Below, in pieces: positions 2,063 through 18,596 of a stretch of DNA of 64,000 bases. The notes beneath the pieces are model-generated. The model searched no databases. It saw nothing but the letters and a program-made list of their open reading frames with translations, and was not told where the DNA came from. Where the stretch lies: positions 1 to 64,000 of the forward strand of contig JAKLFY010000030.1 in assembly GCA_022710935.1 (NCBI GenBank), read 5' to 3'. The position numbers and the translations under genes are program-made. Each line of letters begins with the position of its first letter. Position 1 is the first letter of the stretch. The stretch comes from Verrucomicrobiota bacterium. Lineage in GTDB: Bacteria > Verrucomicrobiota > Verrucomicrobiia > Limisphaerales > J093.

Positions 2063-2536
2063 TTAGTAGATGATGGTTCCTTCGATCGTGGCGCCGTAGG
2101 TCGTGGTCATGGTCATTGTCACCAAGTCAATCGTGACCTCGAAGTCTTCGAGTACGCTCCCAGGGAAGACGCTGCCGGTCGCACCCGCAAAGCGTCCCGT
2201 ACCGCCGGTTATGGGGAAGGCGCCCCCTTGTAACTCATAGAAAAACTGATCCCCGTTCGCGGCCGTGACGATCCCCTCATGCGACAACACGGTGAACGCA
2301 AAGGGGTCGAGAGACACCTCCATTTCTCCGGTCGTATAGACCGTGGAAAGTCCGAGGTGACTGTGGATTCCCGCGCCCGTGGTTTCATAGCTGCCACTGA
2401 CCAGATTGACGACGGTGGTGAACGTGCTCGAACCTTTGAACGATCGTGGCACGGGGTTCTTCTCGCTGCCGAGGGCCGAAAGGCCCAGGATGCACGCGCC
2501 GAGGGTGATCAGCATCAGAGGTTTGCTAACGATCAT
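2063..2536 (-). CDS. Small secreted GGTGRF-motif protein (copy A, left cassette)
   Basis: 157 residues from the ATG at 2536, chosen because it is preceded by a purine-rich GGAAAGGAAG site and because the paralogue at 14710 starts at the same point. Residues 1-24 are a signal peptide (basic start, then LMLITLGACILGL). The mature part is beta-rich, with a central ANGDQFFYELQGG block and GGTGRFAGATGS near residue 118. That motif is shared with barrel-like secreted proteins resembling the allene-oxide-cyclase/dirigent group, so the fold is an inference. It lies downstream of and on the same strand as the kinase at 2890-6318, and has its own long conserved leader. Function unknown; perhaps an exported target or ligand of the sigma/kinase pathway. 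Confidence 0.7.
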   Translation of the reverse strand: MIVSKPLMLITLGACILGLSALGSEKNPVPRSFKGSSTFTTVVNLVSGSYETTGAGIHSHLGLSTVYTTGEMEVSLDPFAFTVLSHEGIVTAANGDQFFYELQGGAFPITGGTGRFAGATGSVFPGSVLEDFEVTIDLVTMTMTTTYGATIEGTIIY

Positions 2537-2685
2537 AACTACTTCCTTTCCGTGTATTTGGTTTTGTTTTGCGGCGTTCTTCAGGGCGGAGGTGCTGTTT
2601 CTATCACCGGCGCACTGGCGTCGGCCCGCGCGTCCGTCCAAGGGCCGCAGGGGTAGTAATCAGGAAGAAGCTGAAAAGGTTACAG
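2537..2685 (-). promoter_or_regulatory. Conserved leader/promoter region of secreted-protein family (copy A)
   Basis: Read on the minus strand, this 149-bp stretch starts with a TGTAACCTTTTC box followed by CTTCTTCCT and TGCGGCCC. It ends with an A-rich run (AACGCCGCAAAACAAAACC) just before the ribosome-binding site. The same blocks in the same order occur upstream of the genes at 13337 and 14710. Conservation outside coding sequence suggests a shared promoter plus 5' untranslated region. Which bases are the promoter elements cannot be decided by eye. Confidence 0.5.
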
Positions 2686-2881
2686 AATCCCAGGGCATAG
2701 TCATGAAATGGAGCGGCGACGCCCGCCTGTGCCGGTAGGCAGTGCCCGTCGCCGGCAAACAGTGTCTTCACTGGTGCTGGCCGGGGACGAACCGTCCCCG
2801 CTCCGGCCTTTTTGCGTTCGTGAATTGGTCCTTACAGGATTATGGGTTCCCGCTTCGAGCTTTGTCGTGCGCTGCTCAGCC

Positions 2882-2944
2882 TCGAACGTTCAACGCGCAA
2901 CGTTCAACGCTGAGCCGGGAACCGGGAACCCTGAACCCTGAGCC
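2882..2944. repeat. Heptanucleotide array, nine units
   Basis: Nine back-to-back 7-nt units: TCGAACG, TTCAACG, CGCAACG, TTCAACG, CTGAGCC, GGGAACC, GGGAACC, CTGAACC, CTGAGCC. The array encodes the last ~17 residues and the stop codon of the minus-strand kinase at 2890-6318. The paralogous kinase at 8520-11939 lacks this tail and ends soon after the shared EEIEAAE block. Confidence 0.75.
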
Positions 2945-5900
2945 TTCTCCGCCGCCTCGATTTCTTCCCAGGATGGCGCTCGCCAAAACAACGTCCGGCC
3001 GCCAATGCCGATGGCAAAAAGGGTGTTGCCGTCGGGGGAAAAGCCAAGGCGGGCAAAGAAGCCCGCTTCGCCCGGCAGCGTCGCCATGTCCCGACCGGTG
3101 GCGACGTCCCAGACCTTGACGAGGCCCCGCGCGCTGCTGCCGGCGCTGACCAACCGCCGCGAGTCCGGTGAAAAGGTCAGGCCGTGTAAGGCACTCGCGT
3201 AAGCCACGCCGACGGTGGTGGTTTGTCTCGTCGCGATATCCCAAAGCGTGATCACGCCATTCAGCCCCGCGGCCGCAAACCATTTGCCGTCAGGGGAGAA
3301 TTTGACCAACGTCAGGCCTCCAGTACCGCATGGCAAGGAGTACCGAAACGTCCCGGTCAGGATGTCCCACCACGCCGCGGTTCCATCGCGGTAGGAGAAC
3401 GCCAGCGTCCGCTCGTCGCAGGACATGTCCGCAGTCAGCGGTTGCGTGACCTCGACGCCCCTCAGCTTGATTTCGCGCCACGACACCGATTCCCATAGTT
3501 TGAGGACGAACCGCCAGTCGGAACCATAGGCAGCGGAATGGAGATACTGTCCCCCCGGCGAGAACTGGGGGCCGATAATAAAGGCGGCTTCTGGATAGGC
3601 GAGATTGGTGACCAACCGATGAGCCGGGAAGTCCCAGACCTGGACGAAACCGTTCGTTTTGCTGAGCGCTAACCAACGTCCGTCTTTTGTCAGGTCTAAA
3701 CCTGTGTGACCTGTCCCCAAAAACGACAGGGTCTCGAGTTTTTGCAGCGTCGCCGCGTCCCACCGCGCGATTCCTGGCTCGGTCGAGTTGGCAGTCAGGA
3801 AGCTTTGGCCATTGGGCGCGTAAGCCAGACCGTAGCACCAGACCCCCGTACCCAACGACACGAAACGGCTGGCCGGACTTCGCTTCGGGTCCCAATAGCG
3901 CACCGTACCGTCCCTGGCGCCCGTCACGAGGTCTTTCCCATCGGGCGACCAGGCCACGGCCCAGATTTGAGCCGTGTTCCCCTGGAAGCGCCGAGGCTTG
4001 ATGTTGCCGGCAAGGTCCCAGTCCCAGAGGCGGAGGCTCTGGTCGGCGCTGACCGAGGCCAGGGTTTGGCCATCGGGTGAGAAGGCCAAGCCGGCGACCC
4101 AGTCGCTGTGTCCATTCAGAATCCGTTCGGTGCCCGCCTCCAGGTCCCACACATGCACGTTGGTGCAGCCGAATTCACACCCGGCAGCGAGCCGCCGCCC
4201 ATCAGGCGAGAACGCCAGCGCGGTGATCGCGCCGGCCGGCAGCGGCACCTGGAGCGCCGCCCTTTCCGTCCAGGACATGCGTTCCCACAACCGGATGCGC
4301 GGTTCGACCTCGCCGAGCGCCAGCCATCGACCGTCGGGGGAGAAGAGGATACAGCCGTAGTGGTCGGCATCCATTCTCCCCCGGCGTACACTCGGGAGGA
4401 CACCGACCGAATGCGGCTCTCGCTTTCCGGCCATGGCCTCCCCGGCCGAGGTCGCGTCTGCGACTATGGCCTCGAAGCGTTGCGCCGGCGAGACCGTGAT
4501 CGGCTTCGTGACGAAGTTCGTCAGAACGCTCTGCGAGCTAACGTTCCACACGCAACCGGTGCCGTTCTCGGCCAAGGTGGCTAACTGTTGGCCGTCGGGC
4601 GAGAACGACAGCGAGACCGCGAGGCCGGCGTGCGGCAGACGCGCGACCTCTTTCTGAGCACTCGGGTCCCAGAGAGTGACCACCGGCTGGCCACTGGCAT
4701 CGCGGTTGCCCCAGGCGAGGAGACCCCCTTGTGGCGAAAAGGCCAGGGCCTTGGAGGCTAGGTCCTCACCCGTAGCTTGCAGTTCGGCGACCGACCGTCC
4801 CGAAACGGCGTCCCAGAGAGCAACGGCACCCCCCTTGCGACGCACCGCCAGCCACTTGCCGTCCGGCGAGAACGCCAGCGCCCAGACCGCGTTGGAGTAC
4901 TGGCAGAGCGGGAAACGTTCCTCGCTAAGGCTGTGCGCCCAGAGGTAGCGCCATTCCCAACCACGGAGATCGATTTCAGATTTCAGATTTCGGATTTCGG
5001 ATTTGCCGGCGGGTCGGTGACGGTTGAGAAGTTCACGGGCGCGGCCCAGGTCGTGGTCTTCGAGGGCCTGCTGGACCAGGTTCATGTCGGTGGCGTAGGC
5101 ATTGCGCCGGGCAGTCAACTCGGCGGCCTTGGCTCGCTCCAACTGGCTGAAAATGCCCACAAACCCTCCGACAATCGCCAGCCCCAGGCCTGCGATCAGG
5201 CCCGCGACAAGGGGTTTGCGCCGACACCAACGCCACGTCTTGCCGACCGGGCCAAGCGGGCGAGCCAGGATCGGCCTCTGGTCGAGCCAACGCCCGAGTT
5301 CCTCAGCCAGGGCCTGCGCGCTGGGGTAGCGCCGGTCGGGTTCCTTTTCGAGGCACTTCAGGCAGATGGTCTCCAAGTCCGTGGGCACCGCGGGATTCAG
5401 CAGCCGGGGTCGGAGCGGGTCCTCATGCAGCACCCGCCGCAGGGTGTCGGCCAGCGCCTCGCCGACAAACGGCGGTCGCCCCGTGAACAGTTGGTAGAGG
5501 ATCGCCCCCAACGCGTAAACGTCGCTGCGGCGCCCGATCCGGCTGCGCTGACCGGCGGCCTGCTCCGGCGGGATGAAGGCGGGAGAGCCCAAGACCTGAC
5601 CGCTTAGCGTGATTTGGGAGGGGGGAGTGGAGAGTGATGAGTTGAGAGTTGAGAGTTGGGAGTCGGCGAGGCGCTTAGCCAGGCCAAAGTCGGTTACGCG
5701 CGGCTGATCGTTCTCGTCGATCAACACGTTCGAGGGCTTCAAATCCCGGTGCAGAATGCCGCGCTCGTGCGCGAAGTGGACCGCTTCGGCAATCGTCCGC
5801 ACCCAGCCCGCTGACCGCTTAAAATCCGAAACCCGAAACCCGAAACCCGAAATCACTTTGGCCAGCGTCGGTCCGGCCACATAGTCCATCACCAAGTAAT

Positions 5901-6318
5901 GCTGCCCCTCGGCGAGGCCAACCTCATGTACCGCGACGATGTTGGGGTGTTGCAGGCTGCCCGCCGTGACCGCCTCGGTCCGGAACCGATGGACCGTCTC
6001 CTTGTCCACCCACACGCTCAGGGACAAGACCTTCACCGCGACGTACCGATCCAGGCTGAGCTGCCTGGCTTTGTACACCACCCCCATGCCGCCTCGGCCG
6101 ATGCACTCGATCAATTCGTAGGCGCCCAGCCAACACGGCAACGCGCCGCCCAGCGGACCACTGGAGACCGAGAGAGTTGTTGGAGCTTCGGCAACGGGCG
6201 GTTGTTCCGCGACGGCCGCGTCGGCCGCCTGCCCCAGCAGACACTTGGGGCAGAGCCACAGCGGCGTGCCCGCGGGTAACACTGTCCCACACTGCGGACA
6301 TGTGCGTCTTGAGCTCAT
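2890..6318 (-). CDS. Ser/Thr protein kinase with WD40 repeats (left cassette)
   Basis: 1142 residues. Order: N-terminal zinc ribbon (CPQCG and CPKC, residues 8-28); Hanks-type kinase ~66-330 with glycine loop GRGGMGVVYKA, HRDLKPSN near 190 and DFGLAKRL; one membrane helix at ~366-391; then a C-terminal WD40 propeller of ten or more repeats (AFSPDGKWLA, WDxxxG) from ~460. Expected topology: kinase in the cytoplasm, propeller outside the membrane. It follows the ECF sigma gene after 28 bp, so the two are probably one operon; in this kinase-linked ECF group the kinase is thought to control the sigma factor. Heptamer arrays interrupt it at 2882, 4972, 5622 and 5823, all in linkers or at the tail. 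About three quarters of residues match the 8520 paralogue where I compared them. Confidence 0.9.
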   Translation of the reverse strand: MSSRRTCPQCGTVLPAGTPLWLCPKCLLGQAADAAVAEQPPVAEAPTTLSVSSGPLGGALPCWLGAYELIECIGRGGMGVVYKARQLSLDRYVAVKVLSLSVWVDKETVHRFRTEAVTAGSLQHPNIVAVHEVGLAEGQHYLVMDYVAGPTLAKVISGFGFRVSDFKRSAGWVRTIAEAVHFAHERGILHRDLKPSNVLIDENDQPRVTDFGLAKRLADSQLSTLNSSLSTPPSQITLSGQVLGSPAFIPPEQAAGQRSRIGRRSDVYALGAILYQLFTGRPPFVGEALADTLRRVLHEDPLRPRLLNPAVPTDLETICLKCLEKEPDRRYPSAQALAEELGRWLDQRPILARPLGPVGKTWRWCRRKPLVAGLIAGLGLAIVGGFVGIFSQLERAKAAELTARRNAYATDMNLVQQALEDHDLGRARELLNRHRPAGKSEIRNLKSEIDLRGWEWRYLWAHSLSEERFPLCQYSNAVWALAFSPDGKWLAVRRKGGAVALWDAVSGRSVAELQATGEDLASKALAFSPQGGLLAWGNRDASGQPVVTLWDPSAQKEVARLPHAGLAVSLSFSPDGQQLATLAENGTGCVWNVSSQSVLTNFVTKPITVSPAQRFEAIVADATSAGEAMAGKREPHSVGVLPSVRRGRMDADHYGCILFSPDGRWLALGEVEPRIRLWERMSWTERAALQVPLPAGAITALAFSPDGRRLAAGCEFGCTNVHVWDLEAGTERILNGHSDWVAGLAFSPDGQTLASVSADQSLRLWDWDLAGNIKPRRFQGNTAQIWAVAWSPDGKDLVTGARDGTVRYWDPKRSPASRFVSLGTGVWCYGLAYAPNGQSFLTANSTEPGIARWDAATLQKLETLSFLGTGHTGLDLTKDGRWLALSKTNGFVQVWDFPAHRLVTNLAYPEAAFIIGPQFSPGGQYLHSAAYGSDWRFVLKLWESVSWREIKLRGVEVTQPLTADMSCDERTLAFSYRDGTAAWWDILTGTFRYSLPCGTGGLTLVKFSPDGKWFAAAGLNGVITLWDIATRQTTTVGVAYASALHGLTFSPDSRRLVSAGSSARGLVKVWDVATGRDMATLPGEAGFFARLGFSPDGNTLFAIGIGGRTLFWRAPSWEEIEAAEKAQGSGFPVPGSALNVAR
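4972..5006. repeat. Heptanucleotide array (GATTTCR), five units
   Basis: Units GATTTCA, GATTTCA, GATTTCG, GATTTCG, GATTTGC. They lie in the linker between the membrane helix and the WD40 propeller of the left kinase, encoding a charged KSEIRNLKSEI stretch. The right kinase has a different heptamer family (CCATCAA) at the same protein position. Confidence 0.75.
5622..5663. repeat. Heptanucleotide array (TGAGAGT-like), six units
   Basis: Units GGGGAGT, GGAGAGT, GATGAGT, TGAGAGT, TGAGAGT, TGGGAGT: 42 nt, a multiple of 21, so it keeps the reading frame. It encodes a Ser/Leu/Thr-rich insertion after the DFGLAKRL motif, in the kinase activation segment. The right paralogue has no array here and is about 13 residues shorter at this point. 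Confidence 0.7.
5823..5855. repeat. Heptanucleotide array (AACCCGA), four units plus partial
   Basis: Units AATCCGA, AACCCGA, AACCCGA, AACCCGA and a partial AATCA. It encodes the GFGFRVSDF stretch in the kinase domain hinge. The paralogue has a four-unit CGGATTT array at the homologous place (9034-9061), so this insertion probably predates the duplication. Confidence 0.7.
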
Positions 6319-6346
6319 CGGTGGTTTCGTTCTGAACCGATGTGGC

Positions 6347-7096
6347 TCACCCCGAGAACGCCGCCCGGAGACTGCGCAACTCTTCTTCGAGATCAGCCGG
6401 GGTGTGCACGGTGTGCGCCACCTGCTCCCGCAGCAGGTCCCGATACCGCCGGCGCAGGCGATGCACCGCGACTTTCATCGCGCCCTCCGTCATCCGCAGA
6501 CCGGCGCCCAGCTCGGCGTAGGTCAGGTCGGCCTTGTCGCCGGACAAGAACGTTCGGAGTCGTAGGAAGAGACTCTTCTTACCTTCCAAGCTGTATTCTT
6601 CCTCGATGCGTTGGTAAGTCGTCTCGATCAAGTTCGCCGCCCAGGCCCGATCGAACAGACGATCCGGCGAATTCAGATCGGCGGCGTCCAAGCGATAGCG
6701 TTGTTCGGCCTTCTCGCCGTCAAAGGGAACGTGCCGGCTGGTGCCGCCGCGTTTCCCCGCGGAATCCCGTTCCTGTTCGTTCAGGAGAAAGCGCTTTACC
6801 GCGCAGAGAAGGAACCAGCGGAATCTGCCTCGCTCCGGATGCACCGCCGCCAGATAGTCCTTGGCCAGCAGCCGGGCAAAGAACTCTTGGGTCAGGTCTT
6901 CGGCATTCGCCGGCGAATACCCGGAACTGCGTACGTAAGCATACAGTGGATACCAGTAGGTCCGGCACAACTCTTCGAGAGCGGCGTCCGCCTGGGGCGA
7001 CGGCGCTCCGCCTGCCGCCAGCACGACGCTCCAATGGGTCGTGGTGAACTCACAAGGCACATCCGCGGCCCTCGGGGGGCGGACTTCCTGGGACAT
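6347..7096 (-). CDS. ECF-type sigma-70 factor (left cassette)
   Basis: 249 residues from the ATG at 7096 (MSQEVRPP). The upstream open frame lacks similarity to the paralogue, so this start is preferred. Region 2 is recognisable from THWSVVLAAG through CRTYWYPLYAYVR and DLTQEFFARLL; region 4 from TYAELGAGLRMTEGAMKVAVHRLRRRYRDLL. This is the ECF group that co-occurs with membrane Ser/Thr kinases in Planctomycetes and Verrucomicrobia. The kinase gene follows 28 bp downstream. The right-hand paralogue (7705-8454) has exactly the same length and is transcribed divergently. No anti-sigma gene is adjacent, so control through the kinase is the likely alternative. Confidence 0.88.
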   Translation of the reverse strand: MSQEVRPPRAADVPCEFTTTHWSVVLAAGGAPSPQADAALEELCRTYWYPLYAYVRSSGYSPANAEDLTQEFFARLLAKDYLAAVHPERGRFRWFLLCAVKRFLLNEQERDSAGKRGGTSRHVPFDGEKAEQRYRLDAADLNSPDRLFDRAWAANLIETTYQRIEEEYSLEGKKSLFLRLRTFLSGDKADLTYAELGAGLRMTEGAMKVAVHRLRRRYRDLLREQVAHTVHTPADLEEELRSLRAAFSG

Positions 7097-7704
7097 GGAG
7101 CGGTTTATACCGCCGGACCACCGCCAGGGAAAGGCCAAAGCGAAACCGTTTTCGAGACTGGTTGGCGGAGAGAGTCTGCCGTGAACTTCGTCGAATTCAG
7201 CGGGAAAATCCCGACGATGGGCTCTCAGATTTCGTTGCCTACGTTTGCCGACAAGACACATGCTGAAACGCTGCGGCCACGCACCATTAGCAAATAGCGG
7301 TCAACATGCGTCTGACCCTTGGAAACATTGGGTCTTCTGGCGGTTTGGCCACTGTGGCGAGTGATTGAAGGTTGTTTGTGCGGCACAACCACCAGGTGCA
7401 GTGGCGCTTGTTCGCGCATTGCTAAAGCAGGAGTTACCTTCCCGTGGCTCGAACCCGGTTACGGACACCGAGCGATTCAATGGTTCGGGTGAGAACGCGA
7501 TCGAGGCTTGGCCCCCGGAAGAAATGGCTACCCATCCCTTACTGCGACCGAAGGCGGCAGCCTCGAGAGTTCCGGTCGGGTCCATTTCTACGCTTGCTAA
7601 ACAGCCTCCGTTGGCGGTACTCAGGACTTGAGTTTCAGCCCGCTGGTGCGCAGCAAGCGTCCGGATTTGGACTGCGCGCCTCGGGGCAGCGAGAGGAGAC
7701 CGGT
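7097..7704. promoter_or_regulatory. Divergent intergenic region between the two sigma/kinase cassettes
   Basis: 608 bp with no credible gene; open frames across it show no recognisable domain. It must contain the promoters for both divergent sigma genes, but no strong -35/-10 pair stands out, as expected if ECF-type promoters are used. It contains a dispersed repeat at 7300-7387. Confidence 0.5.
7300..7387. repeat. Dispersed ~88-bp repeat, copy 1
   Basis: Starts GTCAACATGCG, then TGACCCTTGGAAACATTG, TTCTGGCGGTTTGGCC, and ends GGTTGTTTGTGCGGCACA. The same blocks at the same spacing occur at 45611-45699 (about 70% identical by eye). No coding function is apparent; it could be a mobile-element end or a regulatory module. 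Confidence 0.6.
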
Positions 7705-8454
7705 ATGGAGACTGCGGAGAGCTGCTGCAAATCGGCAGCGCGAACCAGCGCTCAGTTTCCCGGCACGCACTGGAGCGTCGTGCTGGCAGCCGGGGATCCG
7801 CAGTCGCCCGCGTCCGCTCGAGCCCTCGAAACCCTCTGCCGCACTTACTGGTTCCCGCTCTACGCGTTTCTCCGCCGGCGGGGATCCTCCACTGAAGACG
7901 CGCAGGATTTGACACAGGAGTTCCTCGCGCGCCTCCTGTCCACCCACGCCTTGAGCGCCATGGAGCAGGCGAAGGGGCGGTTCCGCTCGTTCTTGCTCGC
8001 CTCGCTCAATCACTTTCTCGCCAACGAATGGGATAAGGCCCGCACCCTTAAACGGGGGGGAGGCCAGCCGATCGTGTCCCTGGACGCGGCTGAAAGCCGT
8101 TATCGGGTCGAACCGAGCGAGTGCCTGTCGCCGGACTGCATCTTCGCACGCCAATGGGCGCTGACGCTGCTGGCCCAGGTCGTCGTCCACCTGCGCGAGG
8201 ACTATCACGCCGCCGGGAAAGGCGCGCTCTTCGAGGCTCTGCAGATCTATCTCTCGGGCGAGAAAGGCCTGCCTCCCTACCGCGAGACGGCCACTGGGCT
8301 GGGGCTGAGTTGCGACGCGCTCAAGAAGGCGGTCGAGCGCCTCCGCCACCGGTACGGCGAACTCTTGCGAGAGGAGATTGCTCACACCGTCAGCGATCCA
8401 GCCGAGGTGGACGAGGAAATCCGCTACCTGCGGAGCGTGTTGGCCTCGCCATGA
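7705..8454 (+). CDS. ECF-type sigma-70 factor (right cassette)
   Basis: 249 residues from the ATG at 7705, preceded by GAGAGGAGA. It has the same architecture as the left-cassette factor: THWSVVLAAGD, CRTYWFPLYAFLRRRG, DLTQEFLARLL in region 2 and PYRETATGLGLSCDALKKAV in region 4. The two differ at many positions, so the duplication is not recent. The kinase gene starts 65 bp downstream on the same strand, suggesting cotranscription. Role by family: transcription initiation at a dedicated promoter set under kinase control. Confidence 0.88.
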   Translation: METAESCCKSAARTSAQFPGTHWSVVLAAGDPQSPASARALETLCRTYWFPLYAFLRRRGSSTEDAQDLTQEFLARLLSTHALSAMEQAKGRFRSFLLASLNHFLANEWDKARTLKRGGGQPIVSLDAAESRYRVEPSECLSPDCIFARQWALTLLAQVVVHLREDYHAAGKGALFEALQIYLSGEKGLPPYRETATGLGLSCDALKKAVERLRHRYGELLREEIAHTVSDPAEVDEEIRYLRSVLASP

Positions 8455-8519
8455 TCGCTGTCACCTTTGGCCGGGAAACCTTCTGTAATGACTGGACGTC
8501 GATTGAGTTGAAGCACGCC

Positions 8520-11500
8520 ATGTCACTCGACCCAGCCAGAACCTGCCCCGAGTGTGGCGCCGAACTGCCGGCGGGCACTGTGCCCGGCCAATGTCCGCAT
8601 TGTCTGCTGGGCCTGGGATTGGCGGTCGCCGGGCAAGTAGCGGAGGGCGAAGGACGGAGAAGAGAAGCCCGAACGCCGAAGTCAGGGGCAGATCACCAGC
8701 CGATCACCGACAACGCTCCACTCTCCACTCCCCACTCTTCACTCTCCACTACCTTTGGCGACTACGAACTGCTGGAGGAAATCGCCCGTGGCGGGATGGG
8801 GGTGATCTACAAGGCCCGGCAAAAGAGCCTGGACCGGATCGTGGCCCTCAAGATGATGCTGGCCGAGCACCTGGCGACCAAGGAACAGCTCGAACGCTTT
8901 CGCACCGAGGCCCAGGCCGCAGCCCAACTGCACCACCCGCATATCGTCGCCATCCACGAAGTGGGCGAGCACGCCGGTCAGCACTTCTTCTCGATGGACT
9001 TTGTCCCGGGGCGGAACTTGGCACAAATCATTGCGGATTTCGGATTTCGGATTTCGGATTTCAAACGGAGCGGGCGGTGGATGAAGGCCATCGCCGAAGC
9101 GGTTCGCCACGCCCATGAGCACGGTATCCTGCACCGGGACCTCAAGCCGTCGAACATCCTCATCGATGAGGAAGACCAACCGCGGATCACGGATTTCGGT
9201 TTGGCGAAGCGGCTCACCGGCGGCTCGGAATTGACGCTCAACGGCCAGGTGCTGGGCTCGCCGAACTACTTGTCGCCGGAACAGGCTGCGGGCACTCACA
9301 CGAAAGTGGGGCCGGCGAGCGACGTGTATGCGCTCGGCGCGATTCTGTACCATCTCTTGACGGGCCGGCCGCCCTTTCAGGCCGACACCCTGACCACACT
9401 CCTCCGGCAGGTTGTGGACACTGAGCCGGTCGCGCCACGCCGGCTCAACCCAAGTATTCCCCACGATCTGGAGACGGTCTGCCTGAAGTGCCTGGAGAAG
9501 GACCCGGGCAGGCGGTACGGCACCGCGCAGATGGTGGCGGAGGAGGTGGGCCGGTTCCTCGAAGGCAAACCGGTGCTGGCGCGGCCGGTGGGACGGGTGG
9601 CCAAGAGTTGGCGCTGGTGCAGGCGCAATCCGCGCTTGGCTCTGGCCACAGGCACGGCGCTGTTGAGCCTGCTGATCGGGTTGGCCGGCGTCACCTGGCA
9701 ATGGCGCCAGGCGCAGTTCGAGCGTGCGCGCGCCGAAGCCGAGGCTCTGCTGGCTCGTCGTAACGCCTACGCCGCGGACATGAACCTGGTCCAGCAGGCG
9801 CTCGAAGCCGGTGAGCTGGGCCGGGCGCGCGAACTGCTCAACCGGCACCGACCCGCAACTTCTTCCTCATCAACCATCAATCTCCAACCATCAATCGATC
9901 TGCGTGGTTGGGAATGGCGCTACCTCTGGGCGCGGTGCCAGGGCGAAGAGCGCTTCACCCTCTGCCAGTACTCGAACGCCGTATGGGCGCTGGCCTTTTC
10001 GCCCGACGGCAAGTGGCTGGCGGTGCGGCGGAGGCGCGGTGCCGTCGCCCTCAGGGACGCTGTGGCGAAGCGGGCAGTGGCCGAGCTGCCAGGCGCGGGC
10101 GATTACTGCGCGTACAAGGCCCTGGCCTTTTCGCCCGCAGGGGATGTCCTGGCTTGGGGCAACCAAGGGGCCGATAAGACCCCGCAGGTCAGTCTCTGGG
10201 ACCTGCGTGCGCAGCAAGAAACAGCGCGGTTGCCGCACTCGGCCCTCCTCGTGTCGCTGGCGTTCTCGCCCGACGGGAAGGTGCTCGCCACCTTGACTGA
10301 AGACGGCACCGTGCACATCTGGGATGTCGCGTCCCGTCAAGTCGTGACCAACTATGTCACCGCACCCGTCGCCGTGTTCGGCGATCGATCCTCGCTGACC
10401 GCGCCGGTGACGCCAACCTCGGCAGGCGGAGGTAGCGTCGGATCGAACGAATCCGACGCCTCATCCGTCAGGCCTCCGTCCATCCGAGCAGCGTTCCACA
10501 CTTTCCACTACGGCTGTGTCCTGTTTTCGCCCGATGGCCGTCGGCTGGCACTCGGGGAGGCCCGGCCGCAGATCCGTTTGTGGGACTGGGCTACGGGGAG
10601 GGAAGAAGAGCCGATCCGGCTGCCAGCGACTGCCGACGGAATCACGGCTTTGGCCTTTTCGCCCGACAGCACGCTGCTCGCTGTCGGTTGCGGATTCGGA
10701 CACAACGATGTGCATGTCTGGGACCTAACGGCGCGCACCGAGCGGCGTTTCGCTGGGCACAGCGGCTGGGTCGCCGGCCTGGCCTTCTCGCCCGATGGGC
10801 AGAAGCTGGCCACGGTCAGCGTCGATCAAACCCTTCGCCTGTGGGATGTCGCCCGCGGGGTCGAGTGGCGGCGGTTCCGGGGGAACGAGGCCGAGGTGTG
10901 GGCCGTGGTTTGGTCACCCCTGGGCCGCGATCTGGTTACGGGTGCCACGGATGGTACGGTGCGATACTGGGACCCGAACGCCAAGCCCACGGACGCCTAC
11001 GCACCCTTACCCGGTAAGATTCGCCCCTTTGGCCTGGCGTTTCTGCCGGACAGCAAGAGCTTCCTGGTGGTCACCCGGCCGGAGGGCGGGGTCGAGCAGA
11101 GGGATGCGACCACGCTTCAGGAAACGGAGCGTTTGTCGTTCCTGGGGACCAACCATGTAACCGTGGACCTCTCGGGGGACGGCCGTTGGCTGGCCCTGGG
11201 GGATACGAATGGGAGTATTCAGGTGTGGGATTTCCCCAGCAGGCGGCTGGCGACAAATCTGGTGTTTCCCAACGTCTGGGGCTTCGTCGTCATGTTCTCC
11301 CCGCGGGGGCAGTACTTGAACGCTGGTGCCTTGGCGTCGGACGGCAGCCCCGTGCCCAAGTTCTGGGAGGTGCCCACTTGGCGCGAGCTCAGCCTCAAAG
11401 GGATCAACCTCACGAATCTTAGCGGGGCAGCCTTCTCTCCTGCCAAGGAAGGAACCTTCGCGTTCGGATACGCAGATGGGACCGTCGCGCTCTGGGACAT

Positions 11501-11939
11501 CGTCACCGGAAGGCGAGAGGCCGTCTTCGACAGTCACTTGGGGGAGAACTTGCGTCTCAACTTCTCAGCCGACGGAAAGCAACTCGTCGCGGCCGAGTTA
11601 AATGGTCAGATCATGGCCTGGGATACGGCAACCCGACAGGCCGCGCCTCTGGCCGGCGGCCATACTCTTGAACTGCACGCGGTGGTTTTCTCACCCGATG
11701 GACGACGACTGTTCGCTGCCGGGGCCAATCCGAAGTACGTAGTGGAAATCTGGGACGTGGCCACCGGTCGTGAAGTGGCGACGCTGCCGGGCGAAACTGG
11801 GAAGTTCTACCCGCGCCTTAGCTTCTCGCCGGACGGCCACACCCTCCTCGCAGCCAGCCTCGAAGACAAGGTGCTCTTCTGGCGCGCACCGTCCTGGGAG
11901 GAGATCGAGGCGGCCGAGATCAAAAAGACGACGCGATGA
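8520..11939 (+). CDS. Ser/Thr protein kinase with WD40 repeats (right cassette)
   Basis: 1139 residues. The ATG at 8520 is chosen because it yields the N-terminal zinc ribbon (CPECG and CPHC) that aligns with the left paralogue; the frame open further upstream overlaps the sigma gene. Kinase domain ~80-345: ARGGMGVIYKAR glycine loop, HRDLKPSN near 205, DFGLAKRL. A membrane helix lies at ~372-395. The C-terminal propeller shows repeated AFSPDG and LWD signatures (e.g. FSPDGRRLALG, WDVATGREVATL). Three heptamer arrays lie in its linkers (8716, 9034, 9867). The tail ends in a short Lys/Thr-rich stretch, without the heptamer-encoded extension of the left copy. Probable membrane sensor kinase partnered with the sigma factor just upstream. 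Confidence 0.9.
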   Translation: MSLDPARTCPECGAELPAGTVPGQCPHCLLGLGLAVAGQVAEGEGRRREARTPKSGADHQPITDNAPLSTPHSSLSTTFGDYELLEEIARGGMGVIYKARQKSLDRIVALKMMLAEHLATKEQLERFRTEAQAAAQLHHPHIVAIHEVGEHAGQHFFSMDFVPGRNLAQIIADFGFRISDFKRSGRWMKAIAEAVRHAHEHGILHRDLKPSNILIDEEDQPRITDFGLAKRLTGGSELTLNGQVLGSPNYLSPEQAAGTHTKVGPASDVYALGAILYHLLTGRPPFQADTLTTLLRQVVDTEPVAPRRLNPSIPHDLETVCLKCLEKDPGRRYGTAQMVAEEVGRFLEGKPVLARPVGRVAKSWRWCRRNPRLALATGTALLSLLIGLAGVTWQWRQAQFERARAEAEALLARRNAYAADMNLVQQALEAGELGRARELLNRHRPATSSSSTINLQPSIDLRGWEWRYLWARCQGEERFTLCQYSNAVWALAFSPDGKWLAVRRRRGAVALRDAVAKRAVAELPGAGDYCAYKALAFSPAGDVLAWGNQGADKTPQVSLWDLRAQQETARLPHSALLVSLAFSPDGKVLATLTEDGTVHIWDVASRQVVTNYVTAPVAVFGDRSSLTAPVTPTSAGGGSVGSNESDASSVRPPSIRAAFHTFHYGCVLFSPDGRRLALGEARPQIRLWDWATGREEEPIRLPATADGITALAFSPDSTLLAVGCGFGHNDVHVWDLTARTERRFAGHSGWVAGLAFSPDGQKLATVSVDQTLRLWDVARGVEWRRFRGNEAEVWAVVWSPLGRDLVTGATDGTVRYWDPNAKPTDAYAPLPGKIRPFGLAFLPDSKSFLVVTRPEGGVEQRDATTLQETERLSFLGTNHVTVDLSGDGRWLALGDTNGSIQVWDFPSRRLATNLVFPNVWGFVVMFSPRGQYLNAGALASDGSPVPKFWEVPTWRELSLKGINLTNLSGAAFSPAKEGTFAFGYADGTVALWDIVTGRREAVFDSHLGENLRLNFSADGKQLVAAELNGQIMAWDTATRQAAPLAGGHTLELHAVVFSPDGRRLFAAGANPKYVVEIWDVATGREVATLPGETGKFYPRLSFSPDGHTLLAASLEDKVLFWRAPSWEEIEAAEIKKTTR
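8716..8750. repeat. Heptanucleotide array (CTCCACT), five units
   Basis: Units CTCCACT, CTCCACT, CCCCACT, CTTCACT, CTCCACT. It encodes a Ser/Thr/Leu-rich linker between the zinc ribbon and the kinase domain of the right kinase. The left kinase has no array here. Confidence 0.75.
9034..9061. repeat. Heptanucleotide array (CGGATTT), four units
   Basis: Four perfect CGGATTT units inside the kinase domain, encoding DFGFRISDF. This is the homologous position to the array at 5823-5855 in the left kinase (same repeat family, opposite strand). Confidence 0.8.
9867..9894. repeat. Heptanucleotide array (CCATCAA), four units
   Basis: Units TCATCAA, CCATCAA, TCTCCAA, CCATCAA in the linker between the membrane helix and the propeller of the right kinase. 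The left kinase carries an unrelated GATTTCR array at this same linker. Confidence 0.7.
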
Positions 11940-12046
11940 GTTCCGTCCGAAGGGAACCCGCCATCTCTTTGGGAACGGGGCGCCAGAGTTCGTTGGGTGC
12001 ACGATGGCCACGAAGTCCGTATCAGATCGACAGAAAGGCAGTAGCT

Positions 12047-12794
12047 ACGATCGGTAACAAACATCTGATGGTCATCGCCGTCGCGGCGTGCGTCCTTGCG
12101 CTGTCTGGCATTGGCAGCCAGAAGAAGCCGGTGGAACGACTGGTGAAGGGCATCGCTCTTGCGACCGCCGTCATCACCCGCGGGGCGGAGGCGCCGCTGA
12201 GCATCGTCAGCGATGGGGAAGGACGATTCAGCCACGCCGGCCCGTACACCACTCTGGCGATAGGCGTCCCGGATGCGTTCGCGCCTGGCGGCTTTCTCAT
12301 TAAGGGTCTGTGCAAAAATTAATTCCGATTTTGCTGGAGGGGATTTGGCTCGCTGGCGAGGCGCGACGAAGGAGCATAGCCTTGACCTCTGTGACTGAGG
12401 AGCAACAAAGCCAGCGAGCCAAAGCCCCCCAGCCCTGCGGGGCGGGGCGGCACCGGGCCATCTGCGTCGTTCCTCGGTCAGTCGAGTATCTCAACGGATA
12501 CACTCCCTCCCTCGGGCCTCGCATCTGGCCCGGTGGCGCTCCCGCCAAAACCGGAAGTAGTTTTTGCACAGACCCTAAGGGGACTACGACGGTCGCGAAC
12601 GGCGACCAACTACTCTGGGAGGCCGTCGACGCAGTTCCTATCCTATGGTTGTCACGGGCGGCACGGGACGTCTCGAAGGGGCATCCGGCAGTATTGGGTC
12701 GGAGATGGTGAAGGACGAACTGCGAGCGGGCCCATTTCCGGGGATTGCCTTGAGGGAGGGGACGGGGCTTCTGGAAGGAACCATCACCGACTGA
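12047..12794 (+). pseudogene. Small secreted GGTGRF-motif protein (copy D, right cassette), inactivated
   Basis: It aligns with the gene at 14710. The start has become ACG at 12047 where the paralogue has ATG (shared context AGAAAGGCAGTAGCT). Signal peptide HLMVIAVAACVLALSG and SQKKPVERLVKG follow. At 12304 the frame is broken by a 272-bp insertion. Resuming at 12576 it reads TTTVANGDQLLWEA, then a frameshift near 12640 moves GGTGRLEGASGS into another frame, ending EGTITD and TGA at 12792. Three independent lesions make this a pseudogene. An ATG at 12068 could still produce a short peptide. It is the third gene of the right cassette, mirroring copy A in the left one. Confidence 0.8.
12304..12575. 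mobile_element. MITE-like non-autonomous element, 272 bp
   Basis: The ends are inverted repeats: GGGTCTGTGCAAAAA at 12304-12318 and its exact complement at 12561-12575. Pairing extends to ~25 bp with about three mismatches. The element is flanked by TAA direct repeats (12301-12303 and 12576-12578), consistent with a 3-bp target duplication as in some IS5-group elements. Inside are two further inverted repeats: TTGGCTCGCTGGC (~12345) with its complement (~12411), and CACCGGGCCATCTGCG with CGCATCTGGCCCGGTG. It has no transposase gene. Removing it restores colinearity with the paralogue at 14710, so insertion is directly demonstrated. Confidence 0.85.
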
Positions 12795-13184
12795 GCTCCA
12801 GATCGCGGCGACGAGGCGCAAGCTGCCCACCGACGGGCGGACCAAGGATCCCCGGGATGGCGCAGTTCGACCTTCTCGGAGCGGGAGCGCCTGGACATCA
12901 TGGCGCCCCCCGCGCCGCCGCCCCGTGATGTACCCGCGCCGCGGTTAGGTTGTCTTCGAAGCGCTCGGTTGGCTCCGCTCGAAAGGCACCGCCGGGTCTG
13001 GATTCGTAGCTCTTCAGGTCAACCGCGAATGAAAGCCGATCCCGCGCACCAGCGTTCGAACCGTGAACGGAATCCGCGCAACCGCCGCTTCATTAGCGTC
13101 CCTGAGCGTGCATTCGCGGTTCCATTTGAGCCACATCGATGTCACCTGGATTCCTGCTCGGCAACCGGAACGGATGCTGCTACC
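12795..13184. other. Intergenic, nothing recognised
   Basis: 390 bp between the inactivated copy D and the leader of the next secreted-protein gene. Open frames here have no recognisable domain. No strong hairpin followed by a T-run was seen. Confidence 0.4.
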
Positions 13185-13336
13185 TGTCACCCTTTCGAGT
13201 TTTTCCTTCTTTGTACTAGTGCGGCCAGTTGACGGGACGACCAGCCGACGCGGGTAGCGTGGGCGAAGAAACCAACGCGTCGGCACTGAACAAAAACGCC
13301 GCAGAACAGAACCAAACAAACAGAAAGGCAGTAATT
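13185..13336 (+). promoter_or_regulatory. Conserved leader/promoter region (copy B)
   Basis: Starts TGTCACCCTTTCGAG, then TTTTCCTTCTTTGTA and TGCGGCC, later GCACTGAACAAAAACGCCGC and CCAAACAAACAGAAAGGCAG just before the ATG. It is strongly similar to 14562-14709 and recognisably similar to 2537-2685. Probably a promoter with a ~100-nt A-rich untranslated leader. Confidence 0.55.
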
Positions 13337-14035
13337 ATGATCGCTAAGAAACATCTGATGCTCATGGCCATCGGGGCGTGCGTCGTCGGCCTGCCGCCCA
13401 TCACGCCGCTTCTCAGTGCCGCCCAGCGTCCCATTGAGGACTTTCTAGTCACCCAGGGCACGTACGTTCCTTGGGGCGTGACCTGGACGGACCTGCTGCC
13501 GAAGGATGGTGCGAATTGGGCGGAGATAGACTATGCGGGTATTAAAGGTGCCATCCTGGAGTTGTACGGCTACCCCTCGCTCGGAACCACGTTCTCGGGG
13601 GCGGTCAACGAAAGACCGCTGCCGGATGGACGGGCGGAAGTGGATGTGGTCCTGCAGACACACAACGCCTTGGCCTGGGCGGGCTATTCGTCCGGTTGGG
13701 CGTGGCCCCCGGAGTTTCTGTTCGGACATGATCTTGTAGAGGTCTACTTCGGCGCTACGCTCGCCCTTGGGGATTGCACGCTCAAGGTCAAGTTCATCAA
13801 CACCGCGCCCGGCGCGCCTTTGCCGGACTTCGTTCAACTGGCCTTCGATCCGCAACCCGGTCAGGAGGTGATCTCCATGTACTTCATTGGCCAGGCGGAA
13901 GGTGTCATGGCTGACGGCAGTCCCGGGCATCTGAAGATAACACAAGTCGGGCTGCTCGCCGTTGCGCCTCCCAAACCGCCGTTCTTCGATTCGTTTCCGG
14001 CTGGAAACATCTTGTTGAAACGGGTCGGCCAATAG
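13337..14035 (+). CDS. Secreted protein sharing leader and signal peptide with the GGTGRF family, different mature domain
   Basis: 232 residues from the ATG at 13337 (MIAKKHLMLMAIGACVVGL), almost the same signal region as the genes at 12047 and 14710. The mature part does not carry the GGTGRF motif; it is rich in aromatic residues and turns (TYVPWGVTWTDLLP, GYSSGWAWPPEF) with one Cys. I do not recognise the domain. The shared leader and signal followed by an unrelated mature part suggests promoter/signal duplication or swapping rather than simple gene duplication. Probably exported to periplasm or surface. No terminator is evident downstream. Confidence 0.65.
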   Translation: MIAKKHLMLMAIGACVVGLPPITPLLSAAQRPIEDFLVTQGTYVPWGVTWTDLLPKDGANWAEIDYAGIKGAILELYGYPSLGTTFSGAVNERPLPDGRAEVDVVLQTHNALAWAGYSSGWAWPPEFLFGHDLVEVYFGATLALGDCTLKVKFINTAPGAPLPDFVQLAFDPQPGQEVISMYFIGQAEGVMADGSPGHLKITQVGLLAVAPPKPPFFDSFPAGNILLKRVGQ

Positions 14036-14561
14036 GCAAAGCAAGGCTTGGGCGTGTGCCCGGCTTGTCCGCGCATACGCTCTTGGAGCCAGCGACTTGG
14101 CATGCGTGGGCCCTCCATAATCCTCGCTGACCGCCATGAATCGCCTAGCCTGCTCTTTGTGAAACTGCACTGGGCATGCTCGGAGTGCTTGCCGCGCTCC
14201 GAGCGTGTCCTGCGGGAGATACGCGCGGTTCGCCTTGTACCGGAAACCGTCAATGGTGCTTGGCCTGTTTGCCTCTGGTGCGCGGAGGGGGTCGAGGAAA
14301 ACCCAGACGATCCGCAATTCTCAGTTGAGTCCTGCCTATCCTGGCGCAAAGGAAGGCCATCCTGGTGGGCGAGCACACGGTGCGGCGGGGACGAACGATC
14401 CTTTCTTCGCGACGGGCCCCCCGGCACCGGCACCCGGCAGCCCCCCGCAGGGACCCCTCCCGCCCCACCCGCGCCATGCACAGGACTCAGGGAGGACTGT
14501 CGCCGTGTCTGGGGCAATTGAGGTCAGCAAGCGCCGATCGAGCGATTCAGCCGGGTCGCCC
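14036..14561. other. Intergenic, no supported gene
   Basis: 526 bp. Several overlapping open frames exist on both strands, but none has a recognisable motif or a convincing ribosome-binding site. It contains C-rich low-complexity sequence around 14415-14475. Confidence 0.35.
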
Positions 14562-14709
14562 TGTCACCTTCTCGAGCTTTTCCTTCTGTATGGTAATGCG
14601 GCCTGTGTGGACGCGCAGCCGGCGCGGGTAACGCCGGCAACAAAACCAGCGGTCCGCACTGAACACAAATGCTGCACAACAAAGCCAAACAAACACAAAG
14701 GCAGCAGTT
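14562..14709 (+). promoter_or_regulatory. Conserved leader/promoter region (copy C)
   Basis: Starts TGTCACCTTCTCGAG, then CTTTTCCTTCTGTATGG and ATGCGGCC, later CACTGAACACAAATGCTGC and CCAAACAAACACAAAGGCAG before the ATG. It aligns over its whole length with 13185-13336. Confidence 0.55.
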
Positions 14710-15180
14710 ATGATCGCAAAGAAACATCTCATCCTCGTCGCCGTCGGGGCGTGCGTCCTCGGGCTGGTCGGCTTCGCCAGCCAGAAGAAGCAAGTGGAAC
14801 GACCGCTGAAGGGCATCATGCAACTGACAGGCGTTATCACCCTTAGTAGCGATGGGATTCCGCTGAGCCTTGTCGTCGATGGGGCAGGACAATGCGACCC
14901 AGGCGGTCCGGTCACTAGTCTTGGGATAGGCGTGCTCCCATACGAAGGGGCCGAGGTGTTCTTCGTGAAGGCGACGATAACGGCCGCGAACGGAGACCAG
15001 CTATTCACGGAGGCGGCCGACCCAGCTCTAACGGTTATCACTGGCGGCACGGGGCGGTTCGAAGGGGCATCCGGTAGTTTCACTATTGTGTATACTAAGT
15101 TGGAATATCGAGACGGCCCGTTCCCGGGGATCTTAATCCTCGACATGGAGGGTCTTACGGAAGGAACCATCACCTATTGA
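14710..15180 (+). CDS. Small secreted GGTGRF-motif protein (copy C)
   Basis: 156 residues, intact. Signal peptide in residues 1-25 (KKHLILVAVGACVLGLVG), then SQKKQVERPLKGIMQLTGV; a central ITAANGDQLFTEAAD block; GGTGRFEGASGS near residue 117; and a C-terminus ending EGTITY (copy A ends EGTIIY). Repeated beta-strand-like blocks with the GGTGRF turn suggest a small beta-barrel of the allene-oxide-cyclase/dirigent kind, which is inference. It is the intact reference for the pseudogene at 12047. No ligand or enzyme activity can be read from the sequence. Confidence 0.75.
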   Translation: MIAKKHLILVAVGACVLGLVGFASQKKQVERPLKGIMQLTGVITLSSDGIPLSLVVDGAGQCDPGGPVTSLGIGVLPYEGAEVFFVKATITAANGDQLFTEAADPALTVITGGTGRFEGASGSFTIVYTKLEYRDGPFPGILILDMEGLTEGTITY

Positions 15181-17127: not shown

Positions 17128-18588
17128 ATGACTTCATCTATGTGCAGCGAAGGTAGGGACAAACGCCACCTGAGAAGGCTGCTGGTGATCGCCCAGCGCG
17201 CTGGCGTCGCTTCGTTGATGCTGGTCGCCGCCGGCTGCAAAGGCATCCCGCGCGCGGGCGAAAGACAGGCCCGACAAGACCTGCAAACGGTGGGTCAAGT
17301 GTACCGTCCGCAAGGCCAGAAAGCCGCGCTGCCGCTGCTGAGCACGAACTCGGGCTTGAGCAACTTCCTCGCGTACGCGCTGCTGAATAAGCCGCGTGTC
17401 GAAGCGGCGTACTTCGACTGGGTGGCGTCGGTCCAGGGCATCACGGTGGCGCGCTCACTGCCGGACCCGCGCCTGATGTTTACCACGGACATCAAAGAGG
17501 TGGTCACGGCCCTCATGCCAGGACTCGTGCAAGAGTTTCCGGGGCCGGGTAAGCTGGGCGCCCGGGCGGCGATTGCGTCAGCGCGAAGCGCCTCGGGGTA
17601 CTTCCACTTCGAAGAAGCCGTCGTACAAGCCGCCTACGATGTGAAGAAGGCGTACTACCAACTCCACTTCCTGGAAGACACCATCCGCATAACTGAAGAA
17701 GTGCTCGGTCTGCTGGCGGACCTGGAACGAATCGCCCGCGCCCAAAACCAGGTCGGCAAAGTCACGCTCCAGGACGTGTTGCGCGCCCAGATCGAACAGG
17801 ACCGGGTCGGGACCGACCTCTCCAATCTCGAAGACTCGCGCCGCCCGCTGCTGGCCCAACTGAAGGCAGCGCTGGGTTTGAAGGCCGACCAGCCTGATCC
17901 ACCGATCCCCGCGTCTTTTGAATTCACTCCGATGGACCTGAGTTCGCAGCAATTGTTCGCCGTCGCCCTGGAGCGTAACCCGCGCTTGCGCGCCATGGAG
18001 GCCGAGGTCCTCATGGCGGACGCCGGCCTTCGGTTGGCCCGCAAGAGCCGGGTGCCTGACTTCAGCCTGGGAGTGGAAGTCGATGTGAAAACGCCGCCCT
18101 ACATGGTGCGACCGCAGGCGGGCATGACCCTGCCTATCTGGCGCGACAAGATCGCCGCCGAGATCGCCGGCGCCCAGGCTCGCAAGCGCGCGGCGGAGGC
18201 GCGGCTGAGCAACGAGCAAATCATGCTGGCGGTGGACTTCGCGGACAAGACGTTCAGTTTCCGCGAGAGCACGCGGAATCTGGAGTTGCTGCGAGATCGG
18301 CTGATTCCCAAGGCCCGGAAGTCGCTGGAAGTCGCCCGGGCTGGCTACCTTTCCGGCCAGATTGATTTCTTCAACCTCATTGATGCCGAGCGGACGCTGC
18401 TGAACTTTCAACTGGCCGAAGTGGAAGTGCGCACACAACGGGAACTGGTGCTGGCAGAATTGTCATTGCTCATCTTGGGCCAACCGCCCGCGGGTGCGCC
18501 CGTGCTGCCGGCTTCCAACTTGCCTTCGACCACCAACGCGCCTGCGGGCAATCCACCGGCCACACGCGCCGCCAAACCATCGCCTTGA
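17128..18588 (+). CDS. TolC-family outer-membrane channel of heavy-metal efflux system
   Basis: 486 residues. The N-terminus carries a lipobox-like LMLVAAGC (Cys near 37), so the mature protein is probably a lipid-anchored outer-membrane factor. The body consists of two OEP repeats with long amphipathic helices: VEAAYFDWVASVQGITVARS, DVKKAYYQLHFLEDTIRITE and, in the second, RLSNEQIMLAVDFADKTF, RDRLIPKARKSLEVARAGY. Length fits CusC/CzcC relatives. It is the first gene of a co-directional set with the adaptor, P-type ATPase and RND pump; the adaptor ATG at 18597 lies 8 bp after its stop. Expected to form the exit duct of a CusCBA-type tripartite pump. The exact start among 17128 and 17140 is uncertain. 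Confidence 0.85.
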   Translation: MTSSMCSEGRDKRHLRRLLVIAQRAGVASLMLVAAGCKGIPRAGERQARQDLQTVGQVYRPQGQKAALPLLSTNSGLSNFLAYALLNKPRVEAAYFDWVASVQGITVARSLPDPRLMFTTDIKEVVTALMPGLVQEFPGPGKLGARAAIASARSASGYFHFEEAVVQAAYDVKKAYYQLHFLEDTIRITEEVLGLLADLERIARAQNQVGKVTLQDVLRAQIEQDRVGTDLSNLEDSRRPLLAQLKAALGLKADQPDPPIPASFEFTPMDLSSQQLFAVALERNPRLRAMEAEVLMADAGLRLARKSRVPDFSLGVEVDVKTPPYMVRPQAGMTLPIWRDKIAAEIAGAQARKRAAEARLSNEQIMLAVDFADKTFSFRESTRNLELLRDRLIPKARKSLEVARAGYLSGQIDFFNLIDAERTLLNFQLAEVEVRTQRELVLAELSLLILGQPPAGAPVLPASNLPSTTNAPAGNPPATRAAKPSP

Positions 18589-18596
18589 CTCCTGTT

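Follow-up and report, generated by a model that had tools for sequence, protein, structure and literature searches.

What do two extracytoplasmic function (ECF) sigma factor genes control when each is followed by a gene for a Ser/Thr kinase with a WD40 domain and the two sets lie head to head, and are these sets copies of one another or separate systems? The question is raised by the first 64,000 nucleotides (the window) of contig JAKLFY010000030.1 from the Verrucomicrobiota assembly GCA_022710935.1, a genome of 7.5 Mb in 259 contigs that was searched as a whole (the own genome, in which the window is contig C184). On the minus strand, the left module runs from a sigma factor gene (6347-7096, 249 aa; recognized from its translation and from weak Sigma70_r2 and sigma70-ECF superfamily matches) through a kinase-WD40 gene (2890-6318, 1142 aa; Pkinase E=1e-46, WD40 E=4e-51) to a gene for an exported protein of the type here termed GGTGRF (2063-2536, 157 aa), assigned from its translation and from a family model of a dirigent/allene oxide cyclase (AOC)-type beta-barrel. 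The right module, on the plus strand, consists of a sigma factor gene (7705-8454, 249 aa; Sigma70_r2 E=2.5e-5), a kinase-WD40 gene (8520-11939, 1139 aa; Pkinase E=2e-53, WD40 E=4e-54) and a GGTGRF pseudogene (about 12047-12794). Both kinases carry an N-terminal CxxC ribbon, a single predicted transmembrane helix, which in the left kinase follows the kinase domain and the CxxC pair, and a C-terminal WD40 part. Between the two sigma genes lies a centre of 608 bp (7097-7704), in which a scan for sigma70-type promoters found none. A preliminary description of this DNA had given the same coordinates, strands and lengths for both sigma factors, both kinases, the left GGTGRF gene and the centre. Its account of the right arm as a three-gene cassette was sound for the sigma factor, the kinase and the pseudogene but missed two further plus-strand genes with the same kind of leader: one for a 232-aa exported protein with a GGTGRF-type leader and signal peptide joined to a different mature part (13337-14035), and one for an intact exported GGTGRF beta-barrel protein of 156 aa (14710-15180; translation and structure model), the right-hand output.

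The answer that we consider probable is that each arm is an independent module in which a WD40 kinase acts through an ECF sigma factor on the kinase gene itself and on genes for exported outputs. A single-span membrane kinase would sense a cue outside the membrane through an extracytoplasmic WD40 propeller and would activate the neighbouring sigma factor, probably via phosphorylation. The sigma factor would in turn transcribe from a bipartite promoter composed of a -35 box of about TGTAACC, a fixed spacing and a -10 box characteristic of that sigma. Its targets would be one or more adjacent exported-protein genes and, at many loci, the right arm among them, the kinase gene, which would establish positive feedback. 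In the window, the outputs would be GGTGRF barrels plus one protein of unknown fold. The model was assembled from computed gene content, predicted transmembrane positions, repeated promoters with a locus-specific -10, signal peptides of the outputs, co-location, a predicted barrel fold and a sigma tree, from which we infer the use of the promoters by the sigma factors, phosphorylation of the latter by the kinase, the membrane topology, the signal and a ligand of the barrel.

Evidence for such promoters comes from the leaders of the GGTGRF genes, which when aligned have CTGTMACC-N13-CCT in common. The TGTCACC leader box highlighted in the preliminary description behaves like the -35 part of a candidate ECF promoter of this kind. 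A whole-genome search with CTGTMACC-N13-CCTKMTNT, allowing at most one mismatch, gave 7 sites, most of which had served to design the pattern. Four lie in the window, before the left GGTGRF gene (CTGTAACC-N13-CCTGATTA, 2657-2685, minus strand), before the right kinase gene (CTGTCACC-N13-CCTTCTGT, 8458-8486, plus strand), before the 13337 gene (CTGTCACC-N13-CCTTCTTT, 13184-13212, plus strand) and before the 14710 gene (CTGTCACC-N13-CCTTCTGT, 14561-14589, plus strand); the pseudogene at 12047-12794 has no match to the promoter carried by its sibling genes. The other three stand before a GGTGRF gene on contig C21 and, on contig C26, before a GGTGRF gene and before a gene for an exported Kelch protein, the last being a site that had no part in the design. 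Within the own genome the sites are thus confined to GGTGRF or ECF-kinase loci. In another module, on contig C40, the version is a different one, TGTAACCTT-N9-TTCCTTCGGTAA, and stands twice, once in front of the kinase gene and once in front of the gene that follows it; a genome search tolerating up to three mismatches adds only two sites, both in ECF-kinase loci, and its control finds 0.

Recurrence of a promoter within a locus was assessed more generally with 71 scored ECF loci of this type, drawn from the own genome and from ten relatives that matching named records (JAOSKK01 for G010) place among Pedosphaerales-type Verrucomicrobiota. A -35-like site in the sigma-kinase gap was compared with a site after the same kinase gene, on the plus strand only and within 2.5 kb, and the length of the common -10 core was recorded. 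The gap and the post-kinase region had a -10 core of at least 8 nt in common in 16/71 loci, against 1.6% of mismatched locus pairs, and one of at least 10 nt in 10/71, against 0.1%. Among 50 loci from previously unused genomes, a core of at least 8 nt was found in 6 (1.8% of mismatched pairs), a number that none of 5000 permutation runs reached (maximum 5), and the same count of 6/50 stood against 0.4% at the threshold of at least 9 nt. The effect in new genomes is real but weaker. One of the 16 matched loci (L108), apparently matched by chance, was excluded from the pair alignment; in 14 of the 15 remaining pairs the distance between -35 and -10 is identical, though shifts of 2 were allowed. 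The spacers and flanks of these pairs are only 42% and 36% alike, i.e. not conserved, and the repeated promoter is therefore not copied DNA.

What the candidate promoters precede is, for the most part, a gene for an exported protein. By the simple hydrophobicity rules used to call signal peptides and transmembrane helices, the gene behind the matched promoter encodes a signal peptide in 14/16 cases, compared with 15.5% of 412 control sites; in the replication set the figures are 4/6 and 15% (Fisher p=0.007). The products are varied and include GGTGRF-type barrels, proteins with Ig and DUF4932, DUF5122/Calx-beta, HYR, PD40 or LVIVD/Kelch domains, and unknowns. In locus L238, the gene behind a matched promoter-like site about 0.9 kb past the kinase encodes a CxxC-ribbon protein resembling a second kinase. 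For the GGTGRF family itself, a survey with a 20-sequence profile in 11 genomes returned 27 places (grouped by hand), of which 12 have an ECF gene of this type no more than about 7 kb away where 0.96 were expected (P ~2e-11); without the two arms of the window, the count is 10/25 against 0.84 expected. The association of GGTGRF genes with ECF-kinase pairs that the preliminary description had proposed to look for in relatives is thus present, and its suggestion of an exported protein as the third member of the system stands, except that this partner need not be a GGTGRF protein. In G010 and G013 the GGTGRF genes point towards the kinase gene and most are preceded by TGTAACC..TTTTCCCGTTG; a GGTGRF gene near an ECF gene in G037 has no clear private promoter. 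On a Planctomycetota contig outside the 27-place count (L161), TGTGACC is common to the kinase gap and to a GGTGRF gene in divergent orientation; this variant is invisible to the main promoter test and is also present in L225.

The layout of the proteins is likewise recurrent. A hydrophobic segment after the kinase domain, taken as a transmembrane helix, is found in 66/73 kinases and an N-terminal CxxC pair in 72/73; as the WD40 part of the window kinases lies beyond this segment, it would be placed outside the membrane, with the kinase domain in the cytoplasm. Planctomycetota membrane Ser/Thr kinases have the same layout, with a cytoplasmic kinase, a single transmembrane helix and predicted periplasmic WD40 or TPR arrays; the accessible portion of that survey does not treat ECF partners, promoters or exported outputs (PMC11032199). 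A kinase gene lies within 2.5 kb on the same strand for 75/94 sigma factors, those of both window arms included. Five sigma factors from five genomes that form a clade beside the left sigma (L097, L099, L101, L105, L114) have no kinase gene detected next door, and kinase linkage has therefore been lost or gained. The window sigmas (~249 aa) have the ECF architecture of sigma2 and sigma4 only, with Sigma70_r2 matches (E=2.5e-5 and 1.4e-4) and sigma70-ECF superfamily matches (7e-7 and 5e-6) that fall below or near curated cut-offs. The closest parallels are the kinase-linked planctomycete groups ECF59, ECF61, ECF62 and ECF217, which are predicted to be controlled by phosphorylation and in which, as here, the ECF gene stands beside a Ser/Thr kinase gene with no anti-sigma seen (PMC8999054). 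What the present loci add is an adjacent exported output and a candidate promoter whose -10 is specific to the locus; for the four groups, the literature searched, which did not extend to ECF classification papers that may list motifs, yielded neither a promoter nor a regulon. In ECF43, represented by EcfP/PknT of Vibrio parahaemolyticus and EcfK/PknS of Xanthomonas citri, the kinase is also encoded beside the ECF factor, and this adjacent Hanks-type kinase is needed for ECF activity (PMC8999054, PMC13147305). ECF43 sigmas are without the acidic sigma2.2 motif and gain charge through phospho-Thr, whereas the sigmas here keep the acidic residues (D65 in 76%, E in 15%; D68 in 99%), with T70 just after in 80%. 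They are therefore not ECF43-like, and activation by phosphorylation that restores a lost acidic motif was ruled out. Other kinase-linked ECF groups have likewise been remarked as not ECF43-like in this motif (PMC8999054).

Several observations weigh against the proposed model. A reversed control pattern at one mismatch gives 8 hits in the own genome where the real pattern gives 7, so it is the location of the real sites and not their number that carries weight, and the C21 GGTGRF gene has the promoter but no ECF gene on its short contig. Most loci fall below the 8-nt threshold (55/71 and 44/50), and a rank test that takes in every locus reaches significance with the first set of loci (p=0.0006) but fails to do so with the replication loci (p=0.14). 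Part of this shortfall is attributable to sigma-kinase gaps that are too short to hold a promoter, as in the left arm with its 28 bp, and to the limited strand and distance that were scored. Retention of the acidic sigma2.2 residues that phospho-activated ECF43 lacks also makes the route by which the kinase would activate its sigma factor less certain. As for the pairing of sigma and promoter, -10 core similarity between 62 loci correlates with sigma identity, most strongly over regions 2.3-2.4 (r=0.31) and least over the linker (0.11), with lower spacer controls of 0.14 and 0.09, respectively; in the new genomes alone, the values are 0.43 for the whole protein, 0.37 for region 4 and 0.34 for regions 2.3-2.4, against 0.06 for the whole-protein spacer control. 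Regions 2.3-2.4 thus outdo whole-protein relatedness only slightly when the sets are pooled and trail it among the replication loci, a further point of weakness, and on these comparisons the candidate -10 is linked to sigma relatedness without singling out one sigma region. The modest size of this correlation, and the derivation of the promoters from sequence rather than from start sites, leave some room for the repeated motif to be bound by a different regulator, or to act in an RNA leader, instead of serving as the promoter of the neighbouring sigma. We regard this as unlikely, since the motif consists of two boxes at a fixed spacing, the first containing the AAC expected in ECF -35 boxes (PMC8103513) and the second being locus specific and tracking sigma relatedness, with an unconserved spacer between the two, and since the sister of the right sigma in another genus (G005) has TGTCAC/CGTCAC..TTGCTTCTGTA sites close to the TGTCACC..CCTTCTGTA of the right sigma.

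Whether the arms arose from one another is a separate matter. The preliminary description, which had viewed them as a mirror-image duplicated cassette, had named homology between them as a point to be checked, and homology is present: the sigmas are 47% identical (E=3e-72) and the kinases 55% identical (E=0), values that exclude chance likeness. That one three-gene cassette was recently duplicated in inverted orientation would also account for the same gene order and lengths, but this is very improbable and was rejected on the sigma tree. In a tree of 91 sigmas, the sister of the left sigma is the sigma on contig C26 of the own genome (81% identity, support 100/100), where the gene order is that of the left module as far as the GGTGRF gene (sigma, kinase, GGTGRF, then the exported Kelch protein), and the sister of the right sigma comes from the other genus, G005 (support 98/97). 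Forcing the two window sigmas together as sisters costs 104 log units (approximately unbiased test, p-AU 0.0026), and their promoter types are unlike (left TGTAACC..CCTGATT, right TGTCACC..CCTTCT). The arms are old, distantly related and separate modules lying head to head. It could further be argued that GGTGRF genes are simply common exported-protein genes that sit beside ECF-kinase pairs by chance, since in many phyla GGTGRF proteins are found in the absence of such pairs; this we find scarcely credible given 12/27 places near an ECF gene against 1.0 expected and the same promoter before several of them. Of the two roles that the preliminary description had offered for the exported protein, output or ligand of the pathway, output is much better supported. 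The protein could still act mainly as a ligand or co-sensor of the kinase WD40 part in an autocrine loop, since predictions place the two on one side of the membrane (for related kinases, PMC11032199). From locus to locus the outputs have unrelated folds (barrel, Kelch, Ig, LVIVD), a spread that suits varied outputs more than one ligand class, which makes the autocrine alternative improbable next to a module that ends in its exported proteins.

For the GGTGRF outputs, structure prediction gives some indication of what is exported. The AlphaFold2 model of the mature 14710-15180 protein is an eight-stranded barrel (predicted local distance difference test score, pLDDT, 93.3) whose best structural match is the dirigent protein PsPTS2 (Z 12.8 over 122 residues), followed by PloI4 (12.7), pyocyanin demethylase (12.1) and AOC (10.5), with Diels-Alderases also among the matches in the Z 10-13 range. 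The predicted fold is thus common to dirigent, AOC, spirotetronate-cyclase and pyocyanin demethylase barrels, although identity to dirigent/AOC-type barrels is only 14-18%. The GGTGRF proteins of the window have no confident Pfam match; among 20 relatives, 7 match Dirigent and 3 AOC_like, all weakly (best E 0.0015). The GGTGRF proteins are accordingly predicted to be small exported barrels of the dirigent/AOC type whose probable role is to bind or alter a small hydrophobic molecule, with the caveat that a shared fold shows no function. A literature search for "GGTGRF" found nothing, and no ECF-kinase neighbours accompany the distant members of the family in Bacteroidota, archaea and actinobacteria. 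A second exported-barrel subfamily (NAGTxFNL...SNLGNC...GGTG) was noticed in the ECF-kinase loci L041, L116, L240, L225 and L267, three of its members lying behind matched promoters. The exported protein encoded at 13337-14035 has no Pfam match, and its single-sequence structure model is uninformative (pLDDT 35); over 74 nt its leader matches those of the GGTGRF genes at 82%, as though a new mature part had been attached to an export leader.

A promoter that often recurs inside a locus with its own -10 would allow sets of sigma factor, promoter and target to be named directly, and many such pairs could be tested at once. As a naturally varied set, the loci could be used to read how an ECF factor selects its -10, and synthetic biology could draw on them for candidate sigma/promoter pairs that are insulated from one another. 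They also place a family of exported dirigent/AOC-type barrels, seen from archaea to Bacteroidota, in a regulatory setting, and make the likely output of many uncharacterized ECF-kinase switches predictable. It is tempting to speculate, in a proposal that we rate as rather doubtful in its full form, that Pedosphaerales-type Verrucomicrobiota operate dozens of insulated "private wire" kinase-WD40/ECF circuits, each of which has a private -10 code and chiefly switches on the exported protein encoded beside it, and that, in circuits whose exported protein is a dirigent-type barrel, this barrel binds or converts the small molecule sensed by the kinase, closing an extracytoplasmic feedback loop.

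The degenerate right GGTGRF gene, already described as a pseudogene, can be traced to two lesions, an ACG in place of the ATG start and the insertion of a 274-bp element that splits the gene (12303-12576, plus strand). This element resembles a miniature inverted-repeat transposable element: its inverted ends measure 31 bp, and a TAA flanks it on each side. A search of the own genome listed 60 matches, many to the inverted ends only, which correspond to about 30 distinct copies or fragments; the copies often lie at contig ends. Both kinase genes contain in-frame short tandem repeats of the (GATTTCG)n and (ACTCTC)n type (4972-4999, 5827-5847, 9036-9063 and 5640-5653), which occur at 0.036 per kb in kinase genes against 0.007 elsewhere in ECF loci, both values being based on small counts. 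Further along the window, at 17128-20522, inspection by eye suggests two successive proteins, the first of the outer-membrane efflux type and the second with an N-terminal segment of the heavy-metal-binding kind, an arrangement like that of resistance-nodulation-division (RND) metal efflux operons.

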